From contig NZ_FNWH01000004.1 of the NCBI RefSeq assembly GCF_900106585.1, forward strand, positions 62,001-126,000: a stretch of DNA of 64,000 nucleotides, written 5' to 3'. This document shows, piece after piece, positions 13,630 through 25,520 of the stretch; the stretch's first letter is position 1, and each line of letters begins with the position of its first letter. A model generated the notes under the pieces. The model ran no database searches, had not been told where the DNA came from, and was given only the letters and a program-made list of their open reading frames with translations. The position numbers and the translations under genes are program-made. This stretch comes from Acidaminococcus timonensis. Its GTDB lineage: Bacteria; Bacillota; Negativicutes; Acidaminococcales; Acidaminococcaceae.

Positions 13630-14202
13630 TTATTCAATAGCTTCCACTTGGGTAAATTTAACTTCAATGGGAGTCTCACGTCCGAACATTTCGACCATCA
13701 CTTTGATCTTCTGTTGTTCGTCGTTGATCTCCGCTACTGTCCCCACCATATCAGTAAAGCCAGGGGCTTTGATGCGGACAGCATCATTCAAACCTACAGG
13801 GCATGCCATCCGGACAACCGGCTCTTCTGCTTCCACAGAAGCAGCAGCTTCGCCGCCTTCTTTGACTTGCGCCCCGAGGATGCGTTCTACTTCACGGTCA
13901 GATAAGGGAATGGGTTTCGTGCCAGTGCCAACGAAGCCGGTCACACCAGGGGTGTTACGCACAGCATACCAGGTCCGATCGTTGACGATCATTTCAATGA
14001 GGACATAGCCCGGGAATACTTTCCGTGCCACAACCTTCTGCTGGTCATCCTTTGCGTCCACTTCATTCTGCATGGGAACCAGCACCTGAAAGATCTGTTC
14101 TTCCATCCCCAGGGAATGGATCTTGCTTTCCAGATTCATTTTGACCTTATTCTCATAACCGGAATAAGTATGAATGACATACCAGTGCTTTTGACCTTCC
14201 AT
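13630..14202 (-). CDS. nusG: Transcription termination/antitermination factor NusG
   Basis: A 190-residue elongation factor binding RNA polymerase. The NGN domain starts [17 protein letters not shown] and includes [11 protein letters not shown] and [11 protein letters not shown]. The C-terminal KOW domain contains [18 protein letters not shown]. The linker carries a slightly extended acidic insert ([16 protein letters not shown]). It starts 2 bp after secE. Confidence 0.99.
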
Positions 14203-14204
14203 GC

Positions 14205-14429
14205 TTAATGCACTCCCATCACTAAACGAAACAATACGGATAAAATAGCATCAATGCCCCAGATGAGAAACGCAGCGAACAGAGAGGATACGATCACGGT
14301 GATGGTGTATCCGATCAGTTCCCGTTTCGTCGGCCAGGTCACTTTTTTCATTTCGATTTTCACATCTCGGAGAAAACCGCCTACACCAGAGGAGTTTTTC
14401 ACTTCCGGGGTGAGTTGTGATGCTGTCAT
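14205..14429 (-). CDS. secE: Preprotein translocase subunit SecE
   Basis: A 74-residue single-span SecE. The amphipathic helix and conserved loop read EMKKVTWPTKRELIGYT, followed by one transmembrane segment (ITVIVSSLFAAFLIWGIDAI). It partners SecY in the Sec channel. It lies between rpmG and nusG. Confidence 0.98.
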   Translation of the reverse strand: MTASQLTPEVKNSSGVGGFLRDVKIEMKKVTWPTKRELIGYTITVIVSSLFAAFLIWGIDAILSVLFRLVMGVH

Positions 14430-14441
14430 ACTCGATCCACC

Positions 14442-14603
14442 TTATTTCGTTTCTTTATGCAACGTATGCTTTTTGCAGAACTTGCAATACTTTTTGATCT
14501 CGATACGTTCCGTATCGTTCTTTTTATTCTTCGTAGTCTGGTAGTTACGCTGTTTGCATTCAGTGCAAGCCAGGGTAATACCCACACGGTTTCCAGCTGC
14601 CAT
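14442..14603 (-). CDS. rpmG: 50S ribosomal protein L33
   Basis: A 53-residue ribosomal protein below usual ORF length limits. It begins [20 protein letters not shown] and contains the second cysteine pair in YCKFCKKH, so it is the zinc-ribbon (C+) form. ATG at 14603, TAA at 14442-14444. First gene of the rpmG-secE-nusG operon, which has its own promoter. Confidence 0.98.
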
Positions 14604-14657
14604 TCCTTAACACCTCACTTACATTCAAAACTCTTGATTCCCAAAAGCCGCCTATAA

Positions 14658-14686
14658 AGGTTATCATAGAACCGTCAAGATGTCAA
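14658..14686 (-). promoter_or_regulatory. Promoter of rpmG-secE-nusG-rplKA
   Basis: TTGACA (14681-14686), 17-nt spacer, TAACCT (14658-14663), between the tuf terminator and rpmG. Confidence 0.65.
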
Positions 14687-14693
14687 CAAAAAA

Positions 14694-14728
14694 GTGAGGC
14701 CGAAAATTGTATCGGCCTCATTTTTTCA
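14694..14728 (-). terminator. tuf terminator
   Basis: GAGGCCGAT pairs with TTCGGCCTC across a short AT loop, followed by ACTTTTTT on the minus strand. It separates tuf from rpmG. Confidence 0.85.
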
Positions 14729-14741
14729 TCCTGTGGTTGAA

Positions 14742-15935
14742 TTAGGCTTCGATTTCAGTAACAACACCGGCGCCAACCGTATGGCCGCCTTCGCGGATAG
14801 CGAAACGCAGACCTTGTTCGATGGCGATCGGGGTAATCAGTTCCACGTCCATCACAACGTTATCGCCAGGCATTACCATTTCGGTGCCTTCGGGCAGGTG
14901 AGCTACACCAGTAACGTCGGTGGTACGGAAGTAGAACTGCGGACGATAGCCGTTGAAGAACGGAGTATGACGGCCGCCTTCTTCTTTGGTCAGTACGTAA
15001 ACCTGACCTTTGAATTTCGTATGAGGATGGATGCTGCCCGGTTTGGCCAGTACCTGACCTCTTTCTACTTCAGTACGGTCGATACCACGCAGCAGGCAGC
15101 CGATGTTATCGCCGGCTTCAGCCTGATCCAGGGTCTTGCGGAACATTTCCAGACCGGTGGCAACGGATTGTTTCTTTTCGTCTTTCAGACCTACGATTTC
15201 AACCGTGTCGCCAACTTTGATCACGCCACGTTCCACACGGCCGGTAGCAACGGTACCACGACCGGTGATGGTGAATACGTCTTCGATAGGCATCAGGAAC
15301 GGTTTGGCCAGGTCATGGACAGGAGTCGGGATGTAGTCATCCACAGCTTCCATCAGTTTGCGGATGTTGTCTTCCTGTTCCTTGTCGCCTTCCAGTGCTT
15401 TCAGAGCGGAGCCCACAACGATGGGCACTTCGTCTCCAGGATAACCGTACTGGCTCAGCAGTTCACGGACTTCCATTTCAACCAGTTCGATCAGTTCAGG
15501 ATCGTCGACTTGGTCGGATTTGTTCAGGAACACTACGATGGCAGGTACGCCAACCTGACGAGCCAGCAGGATGTGTTCACGGGTCTGAGGCATAGGACCA
15601 TCAGCAGCGGAAACAACCAGGATGGCACCGTCCATCTGCGCAGCACCAGTGATCATGTTCTTTACATAGTCAGCGTGCCCCGGGCAGTCAACGTGTGCAT
15701 AGTGTCTCTTCTGGGTTTCATATTCAACGTGGGCGGTATTGATGGTAATCCCACGTTCTCTTTCTTCCGGAGCCTTATCGATATCGGCATATGCTTCGAA
15801 AGTGGCTTTGCAGCCCGGAGTCTCGGACAGAACCTTGGTGATGGCTGCCGTCAGGGTCGTCTTACCATGATCGACGTGACCAATGGTACCAATGTTTACA
15901 TGGGGTTTTGTTCTTTCAAATTTCTCTTTAGCCAT
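14742..15935 (-). CDS. tuf: Elongation factor Tu
   Basis: A 397-residue GTPase that delivers aminoacyl-tRNA to the ribosome. GTP-binding motifs are [16 protein letters not shown] and NKSD (in [11 protein letters not shown]). The start at 15935 ([10 protein letters not shown]) has GGGAGGT upstream; an upstream in-frame start would add five residues. It lies downstream of five tRNA genes, with a weak hairpin between them. Confidence 0.99.
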
Positions 15936-15970
15936 TAGAATACCTCCCAACGCGTTTTCAAATTTCTTTA

Positions 15971-15999
15971 GATTTTAAAATAGCCCCGTAACCGGGGCT
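15971..15999 (-). terminator. Weak terminator/attenuator between the tRNA cluster and tuf
   Basis: AGCCCCG pairs with CGGGGCT around a 4-nt loop, followed by ATTTTAAAAT. I see no separate tuf promoter in the 35 bp that follow, so this may attenuate or process rather than fully terminate the tRNA transcript. Confidence 0.55.
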
Positions 16000-16009
16000 G
16001 TGTTGGTAA

Positions 16010-16086
16010 TGGTAGCGGCGCACGGATTTGAACCGCGGACAGGCCGGGTATGAACCGACTGCTCTAGCCAACTGAGCTACGCCGCC
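16010..16086 (-). tRNA. tRNA-Met (CAT), elongator
   Basis: Full cloverleaf of 77 nt with encoded CCA. The acceptor GGCGGCG pairs with CGCCGCT-type 3' end, and the anticodon loop is TTCATAC. Position 1 is a normal G, so this is the elongator form. Confidence 0.95.
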
Positions 16087-16092
16087 ATAAAA

Positions 16093-16168
16093 TGGAGCTG
16101 ATGACCAGAATCGGACTGGTGACCTTATCCTTACCAAGGATACGCTCTACCAACTGAGCTACATCAGC
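16093..16168 (-). tRNA. tRNA-Thr (GGT)
   Basis: Cloverleaf of 76 nt with encoded CCA. The acceptor stem is GCTGATG/CATCAGC and the anticodon loop is TTGGTAA. Confidence 0.95.
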
Positions 16169-16171
16169 ATG

Positions 16172-16247
<76 letters not shown>

Positions 16248-16252
16248 ATATT

Positions 16253-16337
16253 TGGTGGAGAGAGAAGGATTCGAACCTTCGAAGCCAGAGGCGGCAGATT
16301 TACAGTCTGCTCCCTTTAACCACTCGGGAATCTCTCC
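16253..16337 (-). tRNA. tRNA-Tyr (GTA)
   Basis: A class II tRNA of 85 nt with a long variable arm and encoded CCA. The acceptor stem is GGAGAGA/TCTCTCC and the anticodon segment is GACTGTAAATC. Confidence 0.95.
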
Positions 16338-16359
16338 ACATTTGTCTGTCACGAATATT

Positions 16360-16435
<76 letters not shown>

Positions 16436-16458
16436 GCTTTTCGTTCGTAACAAGGATG

Positions 16459-16487
16459 ATTATAAAGGACTTTGGGAAAAATGTCAA
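16459..16487 (-). promoter_or_regulatory. Strong promoter of the tRNA-tuf operon
   Basis: Perfect consensus: TTGACA (16482-16487), 17-nt spacer, TATAAT (16459-16464), ending 23 bp from the first tRNA. Confidence 0.92.
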
Positions 16488-16527
16488 CAGGTTTTTCAAA
16501 AAAAGTGTAAGAAATTTTATAAACCCC

Positions 16528-17331
16528 TTACAGGTAAAAATAGTACACGGTAAAAATGGCCAGAAGGATGCGGTACACCCCGAAAGCAGTCAGGGTGGAA
16601 CGCTGCAGGAACTTCATGAACCATACAATGGACAGGTACCCTACAATGAAGGCCGTGACGAAACCGATGGCCAGGACCGCCAGATCCCCGGCAGTCAGGG
16701 CAGACAGGTTCTTCAGCAGTTCGAACAGGCAGGCAGCCACCATGATGGGCAGTGCCATGATGAAGGTGAAGTCCGCCCCGGCCTTCCGGTTCACGCCTAC
16801 CAGCAGAGCCCCGCCCATGGTGGAACCGCTGCGGGAGAACCCGGGCCACAGGGACAGGAACTGGAAGAAACCGATATACAGAGCCTGGCGGATGCTGATA
16901 TGGTCCACATCCTGCACCAGTTCGGCTTCATGGCCTTTGATCCTGTGCTCGGCATAAATCATCAGGAATGCCCCCAGGACAAGGCCGATGGCCACCGTAG
17001 CCGGAGAGAACAGGTATTTCTTGATGAAGGAGTGCACCAGAAAGGCGAAGGCCATGGTGGGTACGCATCCTGCCGCAATATGCCAGCCAGTGAGCCCCTT
17101 TCCCAGCTGCCAGCCCTCTCGGGTCAGGAACCGGGCAAAACGCTCTTTATAGAGCACCAGGACGGCCAGGATGGCCCCCAGCTGGATGACCACGTCGAAG
17201 ATTTTGGCCAGGCTGCCCTGGAACCCGATCATATGGCCCACGATGATCATGTGGCCCGTGGAGGAAACGGGGATGAATTCTGTCAGTCCTTCTACAACGC
17301 CCAGCAATACGGCGATCAGATTTTCACTCAT
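16528..17331 (-). CDS. uppP: Undecaprenyl-diphosphatase
   Basis: A 267-residue polytopic membrane enzyme (UppP/BacA family) that recycles the lipid carrier of cell-wall synthesis and gives bacitracin tolerance. Catalytic motifs are VVEGLTEFIPVSSTGHMI near residue 12 and WPGFSRSGSTMGG near residue 160. About eight hydrophobic spans are visible. It is followed within 45 bp by the promoter of the tRNA operon and lies downstream of pfk. Confidence 0.96.
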   Translation of the reverse strand: MSENLIAVLLGVVEGLTEFIPVSSTGHMIIVGHMIGFQGSLAKIFDVVIQLGAILAVLVLYKERFARFLTREGWQLGKGLTGWHIAAGCVPTMAFAFLVHSFIKKYLFSPATVAIGLVLGAFLMIYAEHRIKGHEAELVQDVDHISIRQALYIGFFQFLSLWPGFSRSGSTMGGALLVGVNRKAGADFTFIMALPIMVAACLFELLKNLSALTAGDLAVLAIGFVTAFIVGYLSIVWFMKFLQRSTLTAFGVYRILLAIFTVYYFYL

Positions 17332-17404
17332 GACGATACTCCTTCTTGATTCTGCGATAGTATTTTGGCATCAGACTTTGTACATTATAGGGCATCCAGA
17401 GTCA

Positions 17405-17468
17405 AAAAAAAAGAGGAGTCACAGATTTTCCCCCTTTCTTCAGGAAAAATTGAACTCCTCTTTACGAT
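17405..17468 (-). terminator. pfk terminator
   Basis: AAGAGGAGT pairs with ACTCCTCTT across a long AT-rich loop, with TTTTTTT following on the minus strand. Confidence 0.8.
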
Positions 17469-17472
17469 TTGT

Positions 17473-18612
17473 TTACTTCCGGGTATCGCTGGTGTCCCCG
17501 GCCGGTTCCTCATCCCCAAAGGACACACCCACTTCCCGTGCAGTACGGATGATATCCGAATCCACCGGTACCTGATGGGGCTGAGAGGCTGCTTTGGCAA
17601 TGGGTACCCGGACGATTTCGTTGGCCTGGAGGGATACCATCACATTGTATTCCTCATCCAGACAGGCTTCCACTGCCGCCGCCCCGTAACGGGTGGACAG
17701 CACCCGGTCGTAGGCCGTGGGCGAACCGCCCCGCTGGAGATAGCCCAGCACGGTGCAGCGGGATTCGATGCCCGTCCTGTCCTCGATTTCCCGGGCCAGC
17801 TTTTCGCCCACGCCCCCCAGGCGCACCGGTTCGAAGCTGCCCTTCACCAGCCGGGCCACAGTCATCTGTCCGCCGATGGGTTTGGCTCCTTCGGCCACAG
17901 TGATGATGCTGAATTTCTTGCCGTGCTGCTGCCGCTCACGAATCTTGCGGATCACTGCCTCCAGATCGTAGGGGATTTCAGGGATCAGGATCACATCCGC
18001 TCCTCCGGCGATTCCGGAGTGGAGCGCGATCCAGCCCGCATACCGGCCCATCACTTCCAGTACCATGACCCGGTGATGGGATTCCGCCGTGGTATGCAGC
18101 CGGTCCAGGGCCTCGGTGGCCATGGCCATGGCCGTGTCGAAGCCAAAGGTCCGTTCCGTGCAGGGCAGGTCGTTGTCAATGGTCTTGGGCACGCCCACCA
18201 CATTCACATCGCAGTACCGGTGCAGATCATAGGCGATCTTCAGGCTGCCGTCCCCGCCGATGACAATCAGGCAGTCGATCTTCCGGTCCTTCAGGTTCTT
18301 CACCACCACATCCCGTTTGTCTTCGTAGATGGGGTTGCCGGCATCATCCTGGCCCACCATGTACTTGAACGGGTTGTCCCGGTTGGTGGTGCCCAGGATG
18401 GTCCCGCCCCTGGGCAGGATCCCGGACACGTCGGACAGGTCCATGAGTTTCATGTCCCCGTTGATGAGTCCATGGAAGCCGTTGGAAATCCCGTAGATTT
18501 CGAACCCGTGATGGATGGCCGTCTTGACCACCGCCCGGATCACTGCATTCAGTCCGGGGCAGTCGCCGCCGCCGGTAAGGACTGCCAGTGTCCCCTTTTT
18601 TTGTGCCTGCAT
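17473..18612 (-). CDS. pfkA: 6-phosphofructokinase (group III type)
   Basis: A 379-residue phosphofructokinase phosphorylating fructose 6-phosphate in glycolysis. The nucleotide loop is LTGGGDCPGLNAVIR, the donor site GGDGS carries glycine at the position that is aspartate in PPi-dependent enzymes, and the catalytic loop is PKTIDND, with lysine where E. coli PfkA has glycine. This Gly/Lys combination is typical of the longer mixed group III, often ATP-dependent; the donor still needs testing. The start at 18612 (MQAQKKG) has GAAGGTG upstream. It lies 24 bp after the BrxF-like gene, probably in one operon. Confidence 0.93.
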   Translation of the reverse strand: MQAQKKGTLAVLTGGGDCPGLNAVIRAVVKTAIHHGFEIYGISNGFHGLINGDMKLMDLSDVSGILPRGGTILGTTNRDNPFKYMVGQDDAGNPIYEDKRDVVVKNLKDRKIDCLIVIGGDGSLKIAYDLHRYCDVNVVGVPKTIDNDLPCTERTFGFDTAMAMATEALDRLHTTAESHHRVMVLEVMGRYAGWIALHSGIAGGADVILIPEIPYDLEAVIRKIRERQQHGKKFSIITVAEGAKPIGGQMTVARLVKGSFEPVRLGGVGEKLAREIEDRTGIESRCTVLGYLQRGGSPTAYDRVLSTRYGAAAVEACLDEEYNVMVSLQANEIVRVPIAKAASQPHQVPVDSDIIRTAREVGVSFGDEEPAGDTSDTRK

Positions 18613-18636
18613 TGGACTCACCTTCTCTGCTTTCTG

Positions 18637-19098
18637 TTATTCCACTTCAAAAATCGTATAATCCGCTGCGGAGATACGGATGGATTCCGTGCCATCGAAT
18701 TTATCGTAGCACAGCAGCCCGTCGCTCACATAGCCCGGCCAGGCCAGGACCACCGTGTAAGCTTTGCCCAGGGCATCGATCACACTCTTGGGATCGATGT
18801 GGAATACCGGTACGAACAGGGTCTGTACCCGATCCAGCAGGATTACATCCCCCCGGTGGTCGCTCAGTTCCCGGGTCAGCATTTCCGGTGCCTGCGCCTT
18901 CCGTTCGCCAGGCAGCAGCTTCAGGAATTCTTCGGTGATCAGCAGACGGGTATCCACATAATCCCAGCCTTTGCTTTCGGCGGCTTCCCGCAGCAGTTTG
19001 CTCTTGCCGCTGCCGGGTTTTCCGGTTACGATCAGGACTTTCTCGGCTTTGGCCTTCACAGCTTCCACCTGGTTCAGGAATTCTTCCATTTGACTCAT
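18637..19098 (-). CDS. BrxF-like P-loop NTPase, solitary
   Basis: A 153-residue single-domain P-loop protein. From the start at 19098 (MSQMEEFLNQVEAV, GGGAGG 9 nt upstream) it has Walker A TGKPGSGKS near residue 27 and Walker B DVILLDRV near residue 88. Other family-like segments are DTRLLITEEFLKLLPGER and TVVLAWPGYVSDGLL. The order and spacing resemble BrxF of type 3 BREX phage-defence systems. However, no PglZ, BrxC, methylase or other BREX gene is in this window. The gene sits between sigH and pfk and looks like part of a housekeeping operon, so the cellular role is unknown. Confidence 0.72.
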   Translation of the reverse strand: MSQMEEFLNQVEAVKAKAEKVLIVTGKPGSGKSKLLREAAESKGWDYVDTRLLITEEFLKLLPGERKAQAPEMLTRELSDHRGDVILLDRVQTLFVPVFHIDPKSVIDALGKAYTVVLAWPGYVSDGLLCYDKFDGTESIRISAADYTIFEVE

Positions 19099-19225
19099 GT
19101 GTATCGTCCTCCCTTGGTTTTTTCCGCATACGATTGATTCCGCCATCGATAGTGACTTATTCGCCGGATGGAAAGGAATTTCCTGCAAACAAGCTGTTTT
19201 TTCTTTGGCGAAAAGAAATCATATC

Positions 19226-19960
19226 TCAGACTGTTTCAATTCTATCATTCTTTTCCTCAGACTGCAAAAGATGTTCCTTCGCCGCCATGATCAGGAGCCC
19301 CTTATTCAGGGTGGACAGATCCAGTTCATGGTGGCGGCTGGCCAGGAATTTCTCCAGTTTCTTCTTGACCCGCTGAAGGGCGTTGTCAATGGACTTCTGT
19401 CCCCGGCCCAGCTCCCGGGCAATCTGCTGGTAGGATTTATTTTCCAGATATTTGCACAGGGCCTGCCATTCCAGGGTACTGAGCATATCATTCACATTCT
19501 TTTCAATATCATCGAAAGACTCCTGGTCGATGACCAGGTTTTCCGGATCGATACCCCGGGCGGAGCCCAGCATGTCCAGCAGTGTCCGTTCCTTGCCGTC
19601 GTCGTACACCGGTTTGTCCAGGGACACGTAGCTGTTCAGGGGCTTATGCTTCTGCCGGGTGGCACTTTTGATGGCGGAGATGATCTGCCGGTTCACACAC
19701 ACGTCGGCAAAGACCTTGAAGGAAGCCTGCTTACCCGGGCGGTAATCCCGGATGGCCTTGAACAGACCGATCATCCCCTCCTGGATCATATCATCCTTTT
19801 CGGCCCCCACCAGAAAATAGCGGCAGGCCCGGAGTTTCACGAATTCCTTGTATTTGTCCAGCAGATAATCCTGGGCCTGGCGATCGTCCCGGTCCTGGAT
19901 CAGCTGGATCAGTTCCTCGTCGGAACAGGTATCATAAAATTTACGGATTTCCTCCTGCAA
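19226..19960 (-). CDS. sigH: RNA polymerase sigma factor, SigH-like
   Basis: A 244-residue sigma-70 family protein of the Spo0H/SigH group. Region 2 contains EKDDMIQEGMIGLFKAIRDY with the core-binding and -10 recognition helices (FADVCVNRQIISAIKSATR). Region 4 contains an HTH, KSYQQIARELGRGQKSIDNA. The C-terminus carries an extra tail of about 30 residues (DLSTLNKGLLIMAAKEH) beyond usual SigH. The start appears to be TTG at 19960 with GAAGGTG upstream. It follows rlmB, the conserved Firmicutes order. Whether it controls competence, stationary-phase or sporulation remnants cannot be told. Confidence 0.88.
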   Translation of the reverse strand: MQEEIRKFYDTCSDEELIQLIQDRDDRQAQDYLLDKYKEFVKLRACRYFLVGAEKDDMIQEGMIGLFKAIRDYRPGKQASFKVFADVCVNRQIISAIKSATRQKHKPLNSYVSLDKPVYDDGKERTLLDMLGSARGIDPENLVIDQESFDDIEKNVNDMLSTLEWQALCKYLENKSYQQIARELGRGQKSIDNALQRVKKKLEKFLASRHHELDLSTLNKGLLIMAAKEHLLQSEEKNDRIETV

Positions 19961-20019
19961 TGGCAGTCACCTTCTTTTGGGTTCGCTGTGCTGCTTCGCA
20001 TATCATTGGACGCTGACCC

Positions 20020-20772
20020 TTATTTCTTTTTTCTCTCCGCCAGGATCCGCTGGCGGACGATATCATATAGCAGGATTCCGCCGGCCACGGAGGCATTCAG
20101 GCTGGATACCTGGCCCAGCATGGGGATGCGCACGATGAAGTCGCAGTTCTCCTTCACCAGCCGCCCCAGGCCCTTGCCCTCGGCGCCCACCACCAATACC
20201 AGGGGACCGGTCAGATTGGCATCGAAGTACTGGTCCCTGCCGTCCATATCCGCTCCCACGATCCAGAAGCCCTTTTCCTTCAGCTTCTTCATGGTCTGGG
20301 GAATGTTCCCGATCTGGATCACCGGCACGTACTCCACGGCCCCGGCAGAGATCTTGGCCACCACCGCATTCAGAGGGCAGCTGCGCCGCTGGGGCAGAAG
20401 GACGCCATGGACCCCTGCCGCGTTGGCGGTCCGGATCAGGGCCCCCACGTTCTGCGGATCCTGCAGTTCATCCAGCAGCAGCAGGAGCGGCGTCTCATTC
20501 CGGCTCTGCACCTGGGCCAGCACCGTATCCAGATCCTGGAAGGCCACCGGTGCTCCCTGGGCTGCCACGCCCTGGTGGCGCACCCCGTCTGCCAGACGGT
20601 CCAGCACTTCCTTTGTCACCTTTTCCACCGGGATCTTCCGTGCTTCTGCCAGGCTGATGATTTCACCCAGGCTGCCGCCATGGCTGCCTTCCTGGACCAG
20701 TACCTTATTGAAGGACCGGTTGCTGCGCAGGGCCTCCCGCACCGCATTCCGTCCCACGATCACATCTTGCAT
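20020..20772 (-). CDS. rlmB: 23S rRNA (guanosine-2'-O-)-methyltransferase RlmB/TrmH family
   Basis: A 250-residue SPOUT methyltransferase. The N-terminal substrate-binding domain begins MQDVIVGRNAVREAL. The catalytic knot has LLDELQDPQNVGALIRTA, VVGAEGKGLGRLV and a C-terminal VSSLNASVAGGILLYD. These are SpoU/TrmH motifs 1-3. The start at 20772 has GGAGG 5 nt upstream; a longer reading adds unrelated sequence. Immediately upstream of sigH. Confidence 0.92.
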   Translation of the reverse strand: MQDVIVGRNAVREALRSNRSFNKVLVQEGSHGGSLGEIISLAEARKIPVEKVTKEVLDRLADGVRHQGVAAQGAPVAFQDLDTVLAQVQSRNETPLLLLLDELQDPQNVGALIRTANAAGVHGVLLPQRRSCPLNAVVAKISAGAVEYVPVIQIGNIPQTMKKLKEKGFWIVGADMDGRDQYFDANLTGPLVLVVGAEGKGLGRLVKENCDFIVRIPMLGQVSSLNASVAGGILLYDIVRQRILAERKKK

Positions 20773-20862
20773 AATTCCTCCTGATATAAGGGAAGGGTTG
20801 CCGCGGTCTGCAGCAACCCCCTTCCCACTCCTTGCCATCCCCGCAGGAACGGTCTATATCCT

Positions 20863-22044
20863 TCATTCTCCCTTGCTGACCTTTTCCGCAAAGTCATAGC
20901 CGTATTGTTCCGCAGCTTCCAGTTCTTTCGGCAGCGGACGCCACTTCACATTGTAACCCGGCAGCAGTTCCATGCCGGATTCCTTGATCAGAGCTTCCAT
21001 ATCCTTTTCCGCACCGCCGGCCCAGCCGTAGGTTCCGAAGGCTGCAGCTTTCTTGCCAGTGGGTTTCAGCCCTTTCAGGTAGGTCAGGAAAGCGCCGATG
21101 GTGGGCATCATCCCGGAGTTCTGGGTAGGGGAACCGATCAGGATCCCTTTGGCGGTCAGCAGGTCGCTGACGATGGAAGCCTTCAGTTCACTGTGGTACC
21201 GGTACAGTTTTACCCGCATACCCTGTTTTTCGATGCCTTTCACCATGGCCCGGGCCATGGCTTCCGTGCCGCCCCACATGGTGTCGAACACCACCAGGAC
21301 CCGGTCCATGGTCTTGCCGGTGCCCCAGTCTTCATACAGTTGCAGGATATCGTCGATGTGGCTGCGCCAGATATCCCCATGACAGGAACAGATCATCTTC
21401 AGCGGCAGGGTGCGCACCAGTTTCACTGTATTGGGCACCAGTTTGCGGTAGGGCATCAGGATGTTGGCGAAATACCGCTGGGCTTCGAAGAACATATTCT
21501 CCACTTCGGTTTCATCGTCGAACATCTTGCTGCAGCAGTAGTGCTGGCCAAACGCATCACTGGAGAACAGGATCTGTTCTTCCGGACAGTAGGTGACCAT
21601 GGAATCAGGCCAGTGCAGCATGGGGATGGGCTGGAAGGCCAGGGTCCGTTTCCCCAGGCTCACCGTATCGCCCTTCTTTACAACCTTCATATTGAAGATG
21701 TCCCCGTAATGTTCCTTCAGTTCGTTGGCCCCCTGCAGGGTGATCAGGAACGTGGCCTTGGGGCAGGCTTTGGCCAGCGCAGGCAGGCTGCCGGAATGGT
21801 CCGGTTCCACGTGGTTCACCACCACATAGTCGATTTTAGCCGGGTCCACAATGGTGCGGATATTGGCCAGCTGTTCCTCGGCGAACATGGCCTTGACCCC
21901 ATCGATCAGGCAGATCTTGTCATCCATGATCAGGAAAGAGTTGTAGGTCACACCCCGGGGGGTGGCAAAGCCGTGGAAGTCCCGCATGGTCCAGTCACGG
22001 ATCCCTACTTCATATATATCGTTGACAACGGCACGTGCTTTCAT
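20863..22044 (-). CDS. fprA: Flavodiiron protein (FprA family, O2/NO reductase)
   Basis: A 393-residue two-domain protein that reduces oxygen or nitric oxide in anaerobes. The metallo-beta-lactamase domain holds the diiron ligands in VNHVEPDHSG, and later in LHWPDSM, FSSDAFGQH and SCHGDIW. The flavodoxin domain (from about residue 255) has FDTMWGGTEAMA, GSPTQNSGMMP and FGTYGWAGGAEKD for FMN binding. It lacks rubredoxin or reductase extensions, so it is the basic class A form. A consensus-like promoter precedes it at 22090-22118. Confidence 0.95.
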   Translation of the reverse strand: MKARAVVNDIYEVGIRDWTMRDFHGFATPRGVTYNSFLIMDDKICLIDGVKAMFAEEQLANIRTIVDPAKIDYVVVNHVEPDHSGSLPALAKACPKATFLITLQGANELKEHYGDIFNMKVVKKGDTVSLGKRTLAFQPIPMLHWPDSMVTYCPEEQILFSSDAFGQHYCCSKMFDDETEVENMFFEAQRYFANILMPYRKLVPNTVKLVRTLPLKMICSCHGDIWRSHIDDILQLYEDWGTGKTMDRVLVVFDTMWGGTEAMARAMVKGIEKQGMRVKLYRYHSELKASIVSDLLTAKGILIGSPTQNSGMMPTIGAFLTYLKGLKPTGKKAAAFGTYGWAGGAEKDMEALIKESGMELLPGYNVKWRPLPKELEAAEQYGYDFAEKVSKGE

Positions 22045-22089
22045 GATATTACTCCTTTCAACACTCAGTACTGTTACTTTCGCTCATAC

Positions 22090-22118
22090 ATTATACTATT
22101 TTCCCCAATCAATGACAA
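22090..22118 (-). promoter_or_regulatory. Promoter of the flavodiiron protein gene
   Basis: TTGTCA (22113-22118), 17-nt spacer, TATAAT (22090-22095). Confidence 0.75.
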
Positions 22119-22210
22119 TTTGCAGAGAGTAAAACTTTCATGATTTTTCTTGCTGGTTTTTTCACCCCGTTCCAGACCGGAAAGCACTTTGGGGACCTAC
22201 AAGAAAAAAT

Positions 22211-22325
22211 GGGGGTGTGAAAAAATGCTTTTTCACACCCCGTCACTAGTCACTAGTCACTAGCCGATGGAAGCCAGCTGACGCTGGCGAAATAAAGGCG
22301 CTGTAGATGATTCTTTCACACCCCC
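22211..22325. repeat. Repeat family A, copy 2
   Basis: Hairpin GGGGTGTGAAAAA/TTTTTCACACCCC, three GTCACTA units, the core GATGGAAGCCAGCTGACGC, and AAATAAAGGCGCTGT. The distal arm is changed to TTTCACACCCCC, so it can pair with the first hairpin instead of forming its own. It lies downstream of the symporter gene and upstream of the flavodiiron promoter. I see no gene in 22119-22386. Confidence 0.8.
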
Positions 22326-22386
22326 ATATGCCTGTTGCCTTTCTGACTGACCGACCGTGCCGGTTCCCTTCAGCTGGCTGCACCGA

Positions 22387-23748
22387 TCAGTGGCTGCGTT
22401 CTTCCGCTTCTTCCTCCTTCTCATGCTGCAGATATTTCTTCGTTTCGGCCACCACTACACCGGAAAGCCCCAGCAGGGCAATCAGGTTGGGGATGGCCAT
22501 GAGGCCGTTCACGATATCGGCCAGTACCCAGATGGCTTCCAGTTTCAGGAACGCACCGCAGCCCACCAGGATGATGAAGATGATCCGGTAGGGCATGATT
22601 CCTTTCGTACCCACCAGGTATTCCATGCACCGTTCGCCGTAGTAGTTCCAGCCCAGGATGGTGGTGAAAGCGAACAGCACCAGGCCCACCATCAGCATGT
22701 AGCCCCCGAAATGGGGATAGGCCTGCAGGAAGGCAGCGTTGGTCAGGGCAGCCCCGTTCAGGTCTCCCTTCCACAGGCCGCTGATCACCACCACCAGACC
22801 GGTCATGGTGCAGATGATGATGGTATCGATGAACGTCCCGGTCATGGATACCAGCCCCTGTTCTGCCGGCCATTTCGTTTTGGCAGCAGCGGCCACGATG
22901 GGTGCGCTCCCCAGGCCGGATTCGTTGGAGAATACGCCCCGGGCCACGCCGTTCCGCATGGCGAACAGCACACTGGCCCCCAGGAACCCGCCTACGGCAG
23001 CGGTGGGATGGAACGCATCATAGAAGATTTCCATGATGGCGCCGGGCACCTTGTCGGCGAAAATCACCAGAAAGCCCAGGGTACTGGCCATGTAGATGAT
23101 GGCCATGGCCGGTACGACCTTGGAAGCCGTCTTGGCAATGCTCTGCAGTCCTCCCAGGGTAATGGCAGCCACCAGGATGGTCAGGACGATGGCAGTGTAT
23201 TCCACCGGGATGCCGGCGTTCAGCTGGGTGATCTGCACGATGGAGTTCACCTGGGCGAACGTCCCGATGCCGAAGTAGGCCACCAGTACGCCGAAGAAGG
23301 CGAAGGCGATGGCCAGAGGCCGATAGGCTTTACCCAACCCGTTTTCGATGTAGTACATGGGCCCACCGGAAATCTGGCCCTTATCGTCCACCGTACGGAA
23401 TTTCACGGCCAGGCAACCTTCCGCATATTTCGTGGCCATGCCGAAGAAAGCAGCCAGCCACATCCACAGGATGGCCCCCGGACCGCCTGCTTTGATGGCG
23501 GTCGCCACCCCGACGATGTTCCCGGTGCCTACCGTGGCGGCCAGTGCCGTACACAGGGCCTTGAAGGAGTCGATATCCCCTTCCCCCTTGTTCTCTGCCT
23601 TGAAGATCAGCTTCAGAGAGCGGGGCAGGTGCCGCACCTGTAAAAATCCCAGCCGGAAGCTGAGAAAGATCCCGGTCCCCACCAGCAGTACCAGGAGCGG
23701 CGGCCCCCAGACAAAGCTGTCAATGGCATTCAATGTTTCGATGTTCAT
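22387..23748 (-). CDS. Sodium:alanine symporter family amino acid carrier (AgcS)
   Basis: A 453-residue transporter of the AGCS family, which imports alanine or glycine with sodium. It has about 10-11 hydrophobic spans. Family signatures include TVGTGNIVGVATAIKAGGPG near residue 72, FFGMATKYAEGCLAVKFR and NESGLGSAPIVAAAAK. The N-terminus IETLNAIDSFVWGPPLLVLL is typical. The substrate is not determined by sequence. Monocistronic in appearance, with repeat A2 downstream. Confidence 0.93.
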   Translation of the reverse strand: MNIETLNAIDSFVWGPPLLVLLVGTGIFLSFRLGFLQVRHLPRSLKLIFKAENKGEGDIDSFKALCTALAATVGTGNIVGVATAIKAGGPGAILWMWLAAFFGMATKYAEGCLAVKFRTVDDKGQISGGPMYYIENGLGKAYRPLAIAFAFFGVLVAYFGIGTFAQVNSIVQITQLNAGIPVEYTAIVLTILVAAITLGGLQSIAKTASKVVPAMAIIYMASTLGFLVIFADKVPGAIMEIFYDAFHPTAAVGGFLGASVLFAMRNGVARGVFSNESGLGSAPIVAAAAKTKWPAEQGLVSMTGTFIDTIIICTMTGLVVVISGLWKGDLNGAALTNAAFLQAYPHFGGYMLMVGLVLFAFTTILGWNYYGERCMEYLVGTKGIMPYRIIFIILVGCGAFLKLEAIWVLADIVNGLMAIPNLIALLGLSGVVVAETKKYLQHEKEEEAEERSH

Positions 23749-23781: not shown

Positions 23782-25520
23782 TCACAAAAACTCCTCCATC
23801 TTGTGTAAAGAAGCCGTATGTTTCGATTTATCTAAAGCCAGCACCCGTTGATGATAACGGAGCAGCGTACTTCTGTGTCCCACGCTGACCAGGGTGGTGG
23901 ACTGCAGTTGGTCCCCCAGCAGCCGATACAGCGCATCTTCTGTTTCTTCGTCCAGGGCGGAGGTGGCCTCATCCAAAAACAGCCATTGGGGCCGGGTCAG
24001 TACCGCCCGGGCAAAGGCCAGGCGCTGCTGCTCCCCGATGGAGAGCACATGGCCCCAGTCTTCCTCTTCGTCCAGCCGGCCGGCCAGATACCCGATCCGG
24101 CACTGCTGCAGGACGCTCTTCAGTTCGTCGTCCCCCACGTCCCGCTTGCCGGGATACAGTACTGCCTCCCGCAGGGTGCCCAGGGGCAGATAGGGCCGCT
24201 GGGGCACGAACAGCAGCTGGTCGTGGGGCGGCAGGGCCACCCTGCCCCGGGTAAAGGGCCAGATACCCGCCAGGGCCCGGAGCAGCGTACTCTTGCCGCT
24301 GCCGCTGACCCCCTTGATCAGCACATCCTGCCCCGGTTCCAGGGTCACCGTGAACGGCTCCAGGATGGGACTGCCATCTGGAGATCCACTTCCAGGCTCT
24401 CCAGATGCAGAGCCCCATCGGTGCTTTCCTCCCGGTCCACCTGGCTGCGGGCACCGGCCTGCTGCACCCGGTCCATGTCTTCCTCAAATCCCGTGAGCCG
24501 GTCTACCACCGCCTGCCATTCTGCCAGAGAGGCGTACATATCCACAAAGTAGGACAGGGAATCCTGCACCCTGCCAAAAGCCGTGGCCACCTGCATCAGG
24601 CCACCCAGAGTCAGTTCCCGGCGCAGGAACCGGGGAATGGCCACCACGAACGGAAAGATGATGGCAATCTGGGAGTATCCGGAATTCAGCCATACCAGCT
24701 GTTTCTGCTTCAGGACGATTTTCCAGAAGTTCTCCAAAAGGAGCGCAAACCGATTCTTGAACACCCGGCCTTCCTGCTTTTCCCCCTGGTAGAATGCCAC
24801 ACTTTCGGCGTTTTCCCGCAGGCGCACCATGCTGAACCGGAAGTCGGCCTCCCGGCGCTGCTGGAAGAAATTCAAAGCCACCAGTTTGTGTCCCACTTTA
24901 TGGGTCAGCCAGGTGCCCACGGTGGCATAGGCCACGGCCACCCACACCATGTATCCGCCGATGTGCCAGGTATGGCCCAGCAGGCTGAAGCGGAAGGGAC
25001 CTGACAGCTGCCACAGGATCACCACGAAGGAGACCAGGGTGCACAGGGCCTTCAGGATGCCTACAAAGAAACCCAGCGTCTTCGTGACGAACAGGTTCAC
25101 GTCTTCACTGATCCGCTGGTCCGGGTTGTCCATTTCCTTCCCGAACATTTCCAGCCGGTAATAGGTCTGGTGCTTCAGCCACCGGTCGATGTACCGGTTG
25201 GTGAGCCACCGCCGCCAGTTCAGGATCAGCACCTGCTGCAGGTAATAGGCATAGACCGCAAAGATGATATACAGGAACGCCAGGGCAGTGAACCGCCACA
25301 GCTGATGGAAGATTTCGTCCGTCTGGTAATTCTGCAGGGCCGTGTAGAACGCGTTGTTCCACTGGTTCAGCAGGACCAGCATCACCACCACCGCCAGCGT
25401 CAGCGCCAGGATGGCCAGCAGTAAGGCGTAGGCTTTTTTCTTTTCTTCGCTCTTCCAGTAGCTGCGGGTCAGCTGCCACACCTGGGAGAGTAGTTTTTTC
25501 GTACCATTTGTTTGTTTCAC
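23782..25520 (-). pseudogene. YddA/SbmA-type ABC transporter (permease-ATPase fusion) broken by a frameshift
   Basis: One gene of about 578 codons split by a single-base frameshift. The first part (25520 to about 24385) encodes an ABC_membrane_2 domain with about five membrane spans (LILNWRRWLTNRYIDRWL, DNPDQRISEDVNLF). The second part encodes the ATPase: Walker A GVSGSGKSTL, signature LSIGEQQRLAFAR and Walker B WLFLDEATSALDEE. Between LESLEVDL and TVTLEPGQD the other frame supplies PDGSPILEPF, so one lost base at about 24379-24385 explains the break. The upstream frame ends with a short foreign tail (MAVPSWSRSR). It is either a real mutation or a sequencing error. The family exports or imports peptides or cobalamin. 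Confidence 0.85.

Follow-up and report, generated by a model that had tools for sequence, protein, structure and literature searches.

A stand-alone BrxF-like protein encoded between sigH and pfk in Acidaminococcus timonensis is probably a vertically inherited, non-BREX member of the BrxF/BrxB family

The closest described relatives of the protein studied here are BrxB, of type 1 BREX, and BrxF, of type 3 BREX. The text available from PMC13326643 describes BrxB as an inactive AAA+ domain whose docking site is the ATP site of BrxC, where it supplies an arginine; it competes with the self-association of BrxC and forms a bridge to PglZ. BrxF is proposed as the type 3 counterpart of BrxB in the available part of PMC10164562. 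The available sections of PMC12839542 give BrxB and BrxF a common topology, in which helices follow strand 2, a three-stranded cap is present and a C-terminal bundle is absent; they also include eroded Walker motifs in the description of the group (iSTAND). A stand-alone BrxF was not the subject of any paper in the open-access titles and abstract openings that were searched; most subscription papers lie outside that search. The BrxF family itself is already known, and the wide, vertically inherited and P-loop-intact stand-alone branch described here is new as far as we have seen.

The DNA that was analyzed (the window) is a stretch of 64,000 nucleotides from A. timonensis, in an assembly of 2.297 Mb that is 99.9% complete. 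The minus strand at 18637-19098 contains an intact open reading frame of 153 codons with its ATG at 19098 and its stop codon at 18637-18639. A preliminary description had placed a small BrxF-like gene here, next to sigH and pfk. The gene is real, and its strand (minus) is newly given. The features of the locus are as follows.

18637..19098, minus strand: stand-alone BrxF-like P-loop protein, 153 amino acids (profile matches; model pLDDT 94)
19108..19115, minus strand: ribosome-binding site AAGGGAGG, directly 5' of the brxF-like ATG
19226..19960, minus strand: sigH, the upstream neighbor (NF006148, 301.1 bits)
17473..18621, minus strand: pfk, the downstream neighbor (PF00365, 384.1 bits)
16528..17331, minus strand: the next conserved neighbor by synteny, which we take from its sequence to be an uppP-like undecaprenyl-diphosphatase
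19239..19268, minus strand: promoter-like TTTGCA-18-TAGAAT with TG, within the 3' end of sigH; a possible brxF-pfk promoter

The sigH gene, the brxF-like gene and pfk share one strand (minus), with 127 bp between sigH and the brxF-like gene and 15 bp between the brxF-like gene and pfk. This short gap makes the co-transcription with pfk proposed in the preliminary description likely, as do the gaps in most of the named loci (mostly -16 to 38 bp, with two at 128 and 159). The promoter-like sequence at 19239-19268 is weak, as 4 such sites were found where 2.7 are expected. No structured RNA was found between sigH and the brxF-like gene, and an Rfam search of 14000-23000 gave five tRNAs only. The five tRNA genes (16013-16435) have a perfect TTGACA-17-TATAAT promoter just 5' of them, at 16459-16487 on the minus strand. 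Elsewhere in the window, the ATPase and permease halves of an ABC transporter occur as two open reading frames on the minus strand (23782-24348 and 24345-25520) with a 4-base overlap. Both halves are close to each other and in one frame in 5 of 6 named relatives, and the contig of the sixth has one half only. The copy in the window therefore looks frameshifted, either by mutation or by an assembly error.

The 153-residue protein scores 87.4 bits against the NCBIfam model of BREX-3 BrxF, NF033453 (cut-off 50, E 7.6e-25), and the PADLOC BrxF model gives 2e-21. Among the 25 Pfam matches listed, none is to a family over its curated cut-off. The BrxF proteins of plasmid BREX loci are found even by pairwise comparison (30.9% identity, E 2e-7). 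All 22 members of a stand-alone set (A3) match NF033453 at E 1e-3 or better, and an hhalign comparison of 22 stand-alone with 21 BREX rows covers 155 columns with an E-value of 3.8e-39. The resemblance to BREX-3 BrxF that was first noticed is thus borne out, and it extends over the full length. The two forms have the same length, and F95, W120, G122 and R66 are common to both.

An AlphaFold2 model built from 47 sequences has a mean pLDDT of 94 and a pTM of 0.89. The predicted order is five core strands, with two short helices after strand 2 and a three-stranded cap after strand 4. A C-terminal helical lid or bundle is absent in the model, in which the chain ends after the strand at residues 148-151. 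This agrees with the BrxB/BrxF topology in the available sections of PMC12839542. The motifs were read from the sequence and the structural elements were taken from DSSP of the model.

19000..19023, minus strand: Walker A, GKPGSGKS, residues 26-33
18832..18846, minus strand: Walker B strand, VILLD, residues 85-89, with no Glu at +1
18922..18951, minus strand: two short helices, residues 50-59, at the helix-extension-helix position of STAND/ORC-like AAA+ proteins
18670..18732, minus strand: three-stranded cap after strand 4, residues 123-143

As for the features that define AAA+ proteins, the model has an alpha/beta core that carries both Walker motifs, and the glutamate at +1 of Walker B is missing. 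The best solved match in both Foldseek (E 1.1e-4, TM-score 0.46) and VIA-align 2 is 9zll, a BrxC-BrxB-PglZ complex, whose matched chains of about 190 residues were taken as BrxB by their length. The VIA-align 2 match has a Z of 10.4 over 145 residues with an rmsd of 3.9, and since other AAA+ chains reach a Z of 10.0, the lead of less than 1 Z amounts to a tie with unrelated AAA+ chains. The helices after strand 2, the cap and the missing C-terminal bundle of the predicted fold resemble those of BrxB, to which the tied top match may also point; the identity is only about 11%. In addition, the Walker motifs are missing in BrxB according to the available parts of PMC12839542 and PMC10164562, and BrxB works with PglZ and BrxC, neither of which has a match in this Acidaminococcus genome. 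The AAA+ core is also shared with regulators of the Hda/ORC/DnaA clade, and the Hda chain 3sc3 is matched with a Z of 9.3. However, the weak P-loop match to the Hda model TIGR03420 includes residues 4-42 only (18.4 bits against a cut-off of 194.8), and the stand-alone protein does not have a lid domain.

When solved chains are searched with the single sequence or with a profile, the P-loops of adenylate and shikimate kinases are also matched, and the spacing to pfk in the Acidaminococcales is operon-like. Both would fit a kinase of nucleotides or small molecules, with pfk as a possible link to glycolysis. This is improbable, because the kinase matches span little past the P-loop region and score far under the BrxF model, AAA+ domains rank first in the fold search, and pfk does not adjoin the gene in many other families. 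Only part of the class has pfk next to the gene, so a role in glycolysis is not likely to be shared by all members.

The Walker A pattern [GA]xxxxGK[ST] is present in 86 of 87 stand-alone rows from the Negativicutes (at least two genes, L100/L159 and L106/L160, are counted twice in these rows), compared to 23 of 50 BREX rows and 7 of 8 other BrxC-less rows. The eroded Walker motifs of the iSTAND description are not seen here, where Walker A is intact, and the 23 BREX rows with an intact P-loop indicate that erosion is not a general feature of BREX BrxF. The P-loop state changes at least 4 times on a tree of 82 rows. Residues G26, R37, A70, D89, F95 and W120 are invariant (100%) in the 87 stand-alone rows. 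The BREX rows keep A132, P134, H136, Y139 and Y142 (74-82%), and the stand-alone rows have other letters at these positions. A C-terminal pattern defined here, A-x-P-x-H-x-x-Y-x-x-Y, occurs in 24 of 50 BREX rows but in none of the 87 stand-alone rows. Judged from conservation, these differences suggest that ATP binding may be essential to the stand-alone protein and that BREX BrxF may use its C-terminal face for contacts within BREX. One stand-alone gene (L130, at 164-652 in genome G060) has lost its P-loop and is followed by two pfk-like open reading frames.

Unlike BREX-3 BrxF, the stand-alone gene does not have BrxC, PglX and PglZ beside it. The preliminary description had reported no BREX partner nearby, and this holds for the neighbors of the gene and of its named-locus relatives, none of which is brxC, pglX or pglZ. 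It also holds for the whole genome with respect to BrxC (NF033441, 0/1) and PglZ (PF08665), which have no match in it. The protein had also been proposed to be an accessory factor of a BREX locus located somewhere else in the genome. This proposal is contradicted by the same two absences and has next to no probability left. A sample of 300 Negativicutes genomes has BrxF over the cut-off in 121, PglZ in 22 and both in 10. While 10 of the 121 BrxF-bearing genomes could be counted in favor of an accessory role, the co-occurrence is at chance level (Fisher p 0.66). Only three BrxF places are within about 12 kb of PglZ (the second copy of G034, contig 3 of G059, and G146), and each of these loci has BrxC, PglX and PglZ. 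Stand-alone and BREX copies coexist in two of these genomes (G034 and G059), which means that BREX comes with a BrxF of its own.

The pattern is the opposite one in a sample of the rest of the phylum. BrxF is over the cut-off there in 47 of 299 genomes; 49 genomes show some BrxF match, and three of them are Negativicutes. BrxC is present in 41 of the 50 BrxF stretches fetched from outside the Negativicutes. Of the nine BrxC-less stretches, six have stand-alone genes, which come from three genome families, one (L214) has a probable BREX-type copy, and two have fragments. The six stand-alone genes (L222, L225, L233, L234, L237 and L238) have intact P-loops, and their neighborhoods vary.

The order sigH-brxF-pfk is conserved. 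The sigH gene is before and pfk is after the brxF-like gene in 50 of 51 named loci, and the other locus is cut by a contig end. Three of the 51 are MAGs titled Acholeplasmataceae, with loci that resemble the others. A neighbor script applied to 89 loci gave sigH (71) or a BamE-like gene (13) as the nearest recognized upstream gene, and pfk (58) or uppP (11) as the nearest recognized downstream gene; these counts include L077, which was miscalled by the gene picker and has the normal order in the named-locus survey. Outside of the Acidaminococcales, brxF is often followed by uppP or some other gene in place of pfk.

The position directly after sigH in those 71 loci could point to a protein linked to SigH or to sporulation, which is very doubtful. 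Four families (f7, f28, f31 and f35) keep the brxF-like gene away from sigH, and a sigH match is located elsewhere in 11 of 11 of their genomes searched (one weak). Of 20 genomes with the gene, 9 have Spo0A over the cut-off, as do 10 of 16 without it (p 0.34); therefore, a sporulation role is unlikely. The Acidaminococcus genome itself has no Spo0A over the cut-off. The highest score for the Spo0A family in this genome is about 75 bits, where the cut-off is 200, so SigH seems to be retained there without sporulation. In the same four families a BamE-domain protein (c19) is encoded directly before brxF (e.g., L132, L141, L147 and L153). This protein was rejected as a class-wide partner since it was found in 4 of 36 genomes, one of which has a weak match and no brxF.

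The stand-alone genes form one clade, separate from BREX BrxF, in two unrooted trees. The quick tree of 82 rows (SH-aLRT 91) leaves out L246, L153, L130 and near-identical rows. For the careful tree of 69 rows (99/98, and 100% of 200 bootstrap trees), a further 13 BREX rows that are long or degenerate were removed, including L129 and L154, which are two of the three Negativicutes BREX copies. An AU test rejects the joining of the stand-alone clade with L137, the BREX BrxF of G146 (p-AU 0.0004). The six stand-alone rows from other Bacillota are a clade of their own (99/96) in the 69-row tree. A single clade of these six and the Negativicutes stand-alone rows is not rejected (p 0.42), so the stand-alone form may have arisen once or several times.

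Compared with six Acidaminococcus loci, the brxF-like gene has a dN/dS of 0.075-0.128, next to 0.077-0.158 for sigH, 0.082-0.127 for pfk and 0.073-0.163 for rlmB, with some dS values saturated. The gene is therefore under purifying selection like its neighbors. The housekeeping role raised in the preliminary description is supported by this selection, by the single clade and by the vertical synteny.

A domesticated BREX piece that still defends the cell, as an ATP-dependent stand-alone sensor of phage or DNA stress, is unlikely on the same grounds, because a vertical single clade with a housekeeping-like dN/dS is not what is seen in fast-turnover defense genes. Every full-length relative with an assigned role is a defense part, and there is a weak P-loop similarity to the NACHT/Avs defense ATPases. 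However, the gene has no conserved effector or defense neighbor, with sigH, pfk, uppP, rlmB and tuf there instead, and there are no matches among 50,697 phage records. A phage origin of the gene was rejected on those records as well; PHROGs gave weak P-loop matches only.

The gene is present in 35 of 37 genomes of its own family and in 46 of 97 sampled genera of the Negativicutes. No BrxF match was found in the sigH stretches fetched from 20 gene-less genomes, and in 5 of these 20 a close pfk (over 440 bits) is 21-328 bp past the sigH match. Absence from relatives with the same neighbors had been named beforehand as a point against the family assignment. Such absence does occur in part, as 2 of the 37 genomes have no match and one of these two (G022) has pfk directly after sigH, but the family assignment stands. 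The absence indicates that the gene is dispensable in some lineages, and not that it was assigned to the wrong family. Since it is missing from about half of the genera and from some genomes with the same neighbors, the gene is not universally needed; the pattern of loss suggests that it is strongly kept where present and yet can be lost.

Taken with moderate confidence, the best explanation is that the protein is a lidless AAA+ (STAND/ORC-like) member of the BrxF/BrxB family, encoded by a vertically inherited core gene outside BREX in much of the Negativicutes, and that it acts as an ATP-dependent regulator or adaptor. From its motifs and relatives we infer ATP binding, low turnover and docking. 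ATP would be bound by Walker A, which is intact, and by the aspartate of Walker B, which is invariant. Hydrolysis by the domain alone would be poor, because both the C-terminal lid and the glutamate that usually follows the Walker B aspartate are missing. The ATP-bound domain may dock on a partner, most likely a further ATPase of the AAA+ or STAND type, as BrxB does on the ATP site of BrxC, and would thereby regulate or bridge this partner in some everyday process of the cell. The docking of BrxB on BrxC, together with the proposal that BrxF is the counterpart of BrxB, suggests a subunit that docks on or regulates another ATPase in an ATP-dependent way. Since the stand-alone protein has a P-loop of its own, unlike BrxB, its ATP state may itself act as the switch for docking.

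It is possible, and put forward tentatively, that the stand-alone form is the ATP-active, non-defense source of BrxB and BrxF, and that the BREX copies later often lost ATP binding and gained a C-terminal interface. The preliminary description had offered both an ancestral and a domesticated form. The unrooted trees are compatible with recruitment into BREX as well as with escape from BREX.

For the stand-alone genes of the Negativicutes, the results suggest that the BREX label is a misnaming of a family with a household role. Because the NCBI and PADLOC models of BrxF fire on these genes, surveys based on single genes would over-credit many Negativicutes with BREX-3 parts. BrxB and BrxF are among the least understood parts of BREX, and an ATP-competent stand-alone core relative makes their function approachable without the other BREX proteins. 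If the recruitment reading is true, the cellular partner of the stand-alone protein would reveal how BrxB and BrxF act on BrxC.
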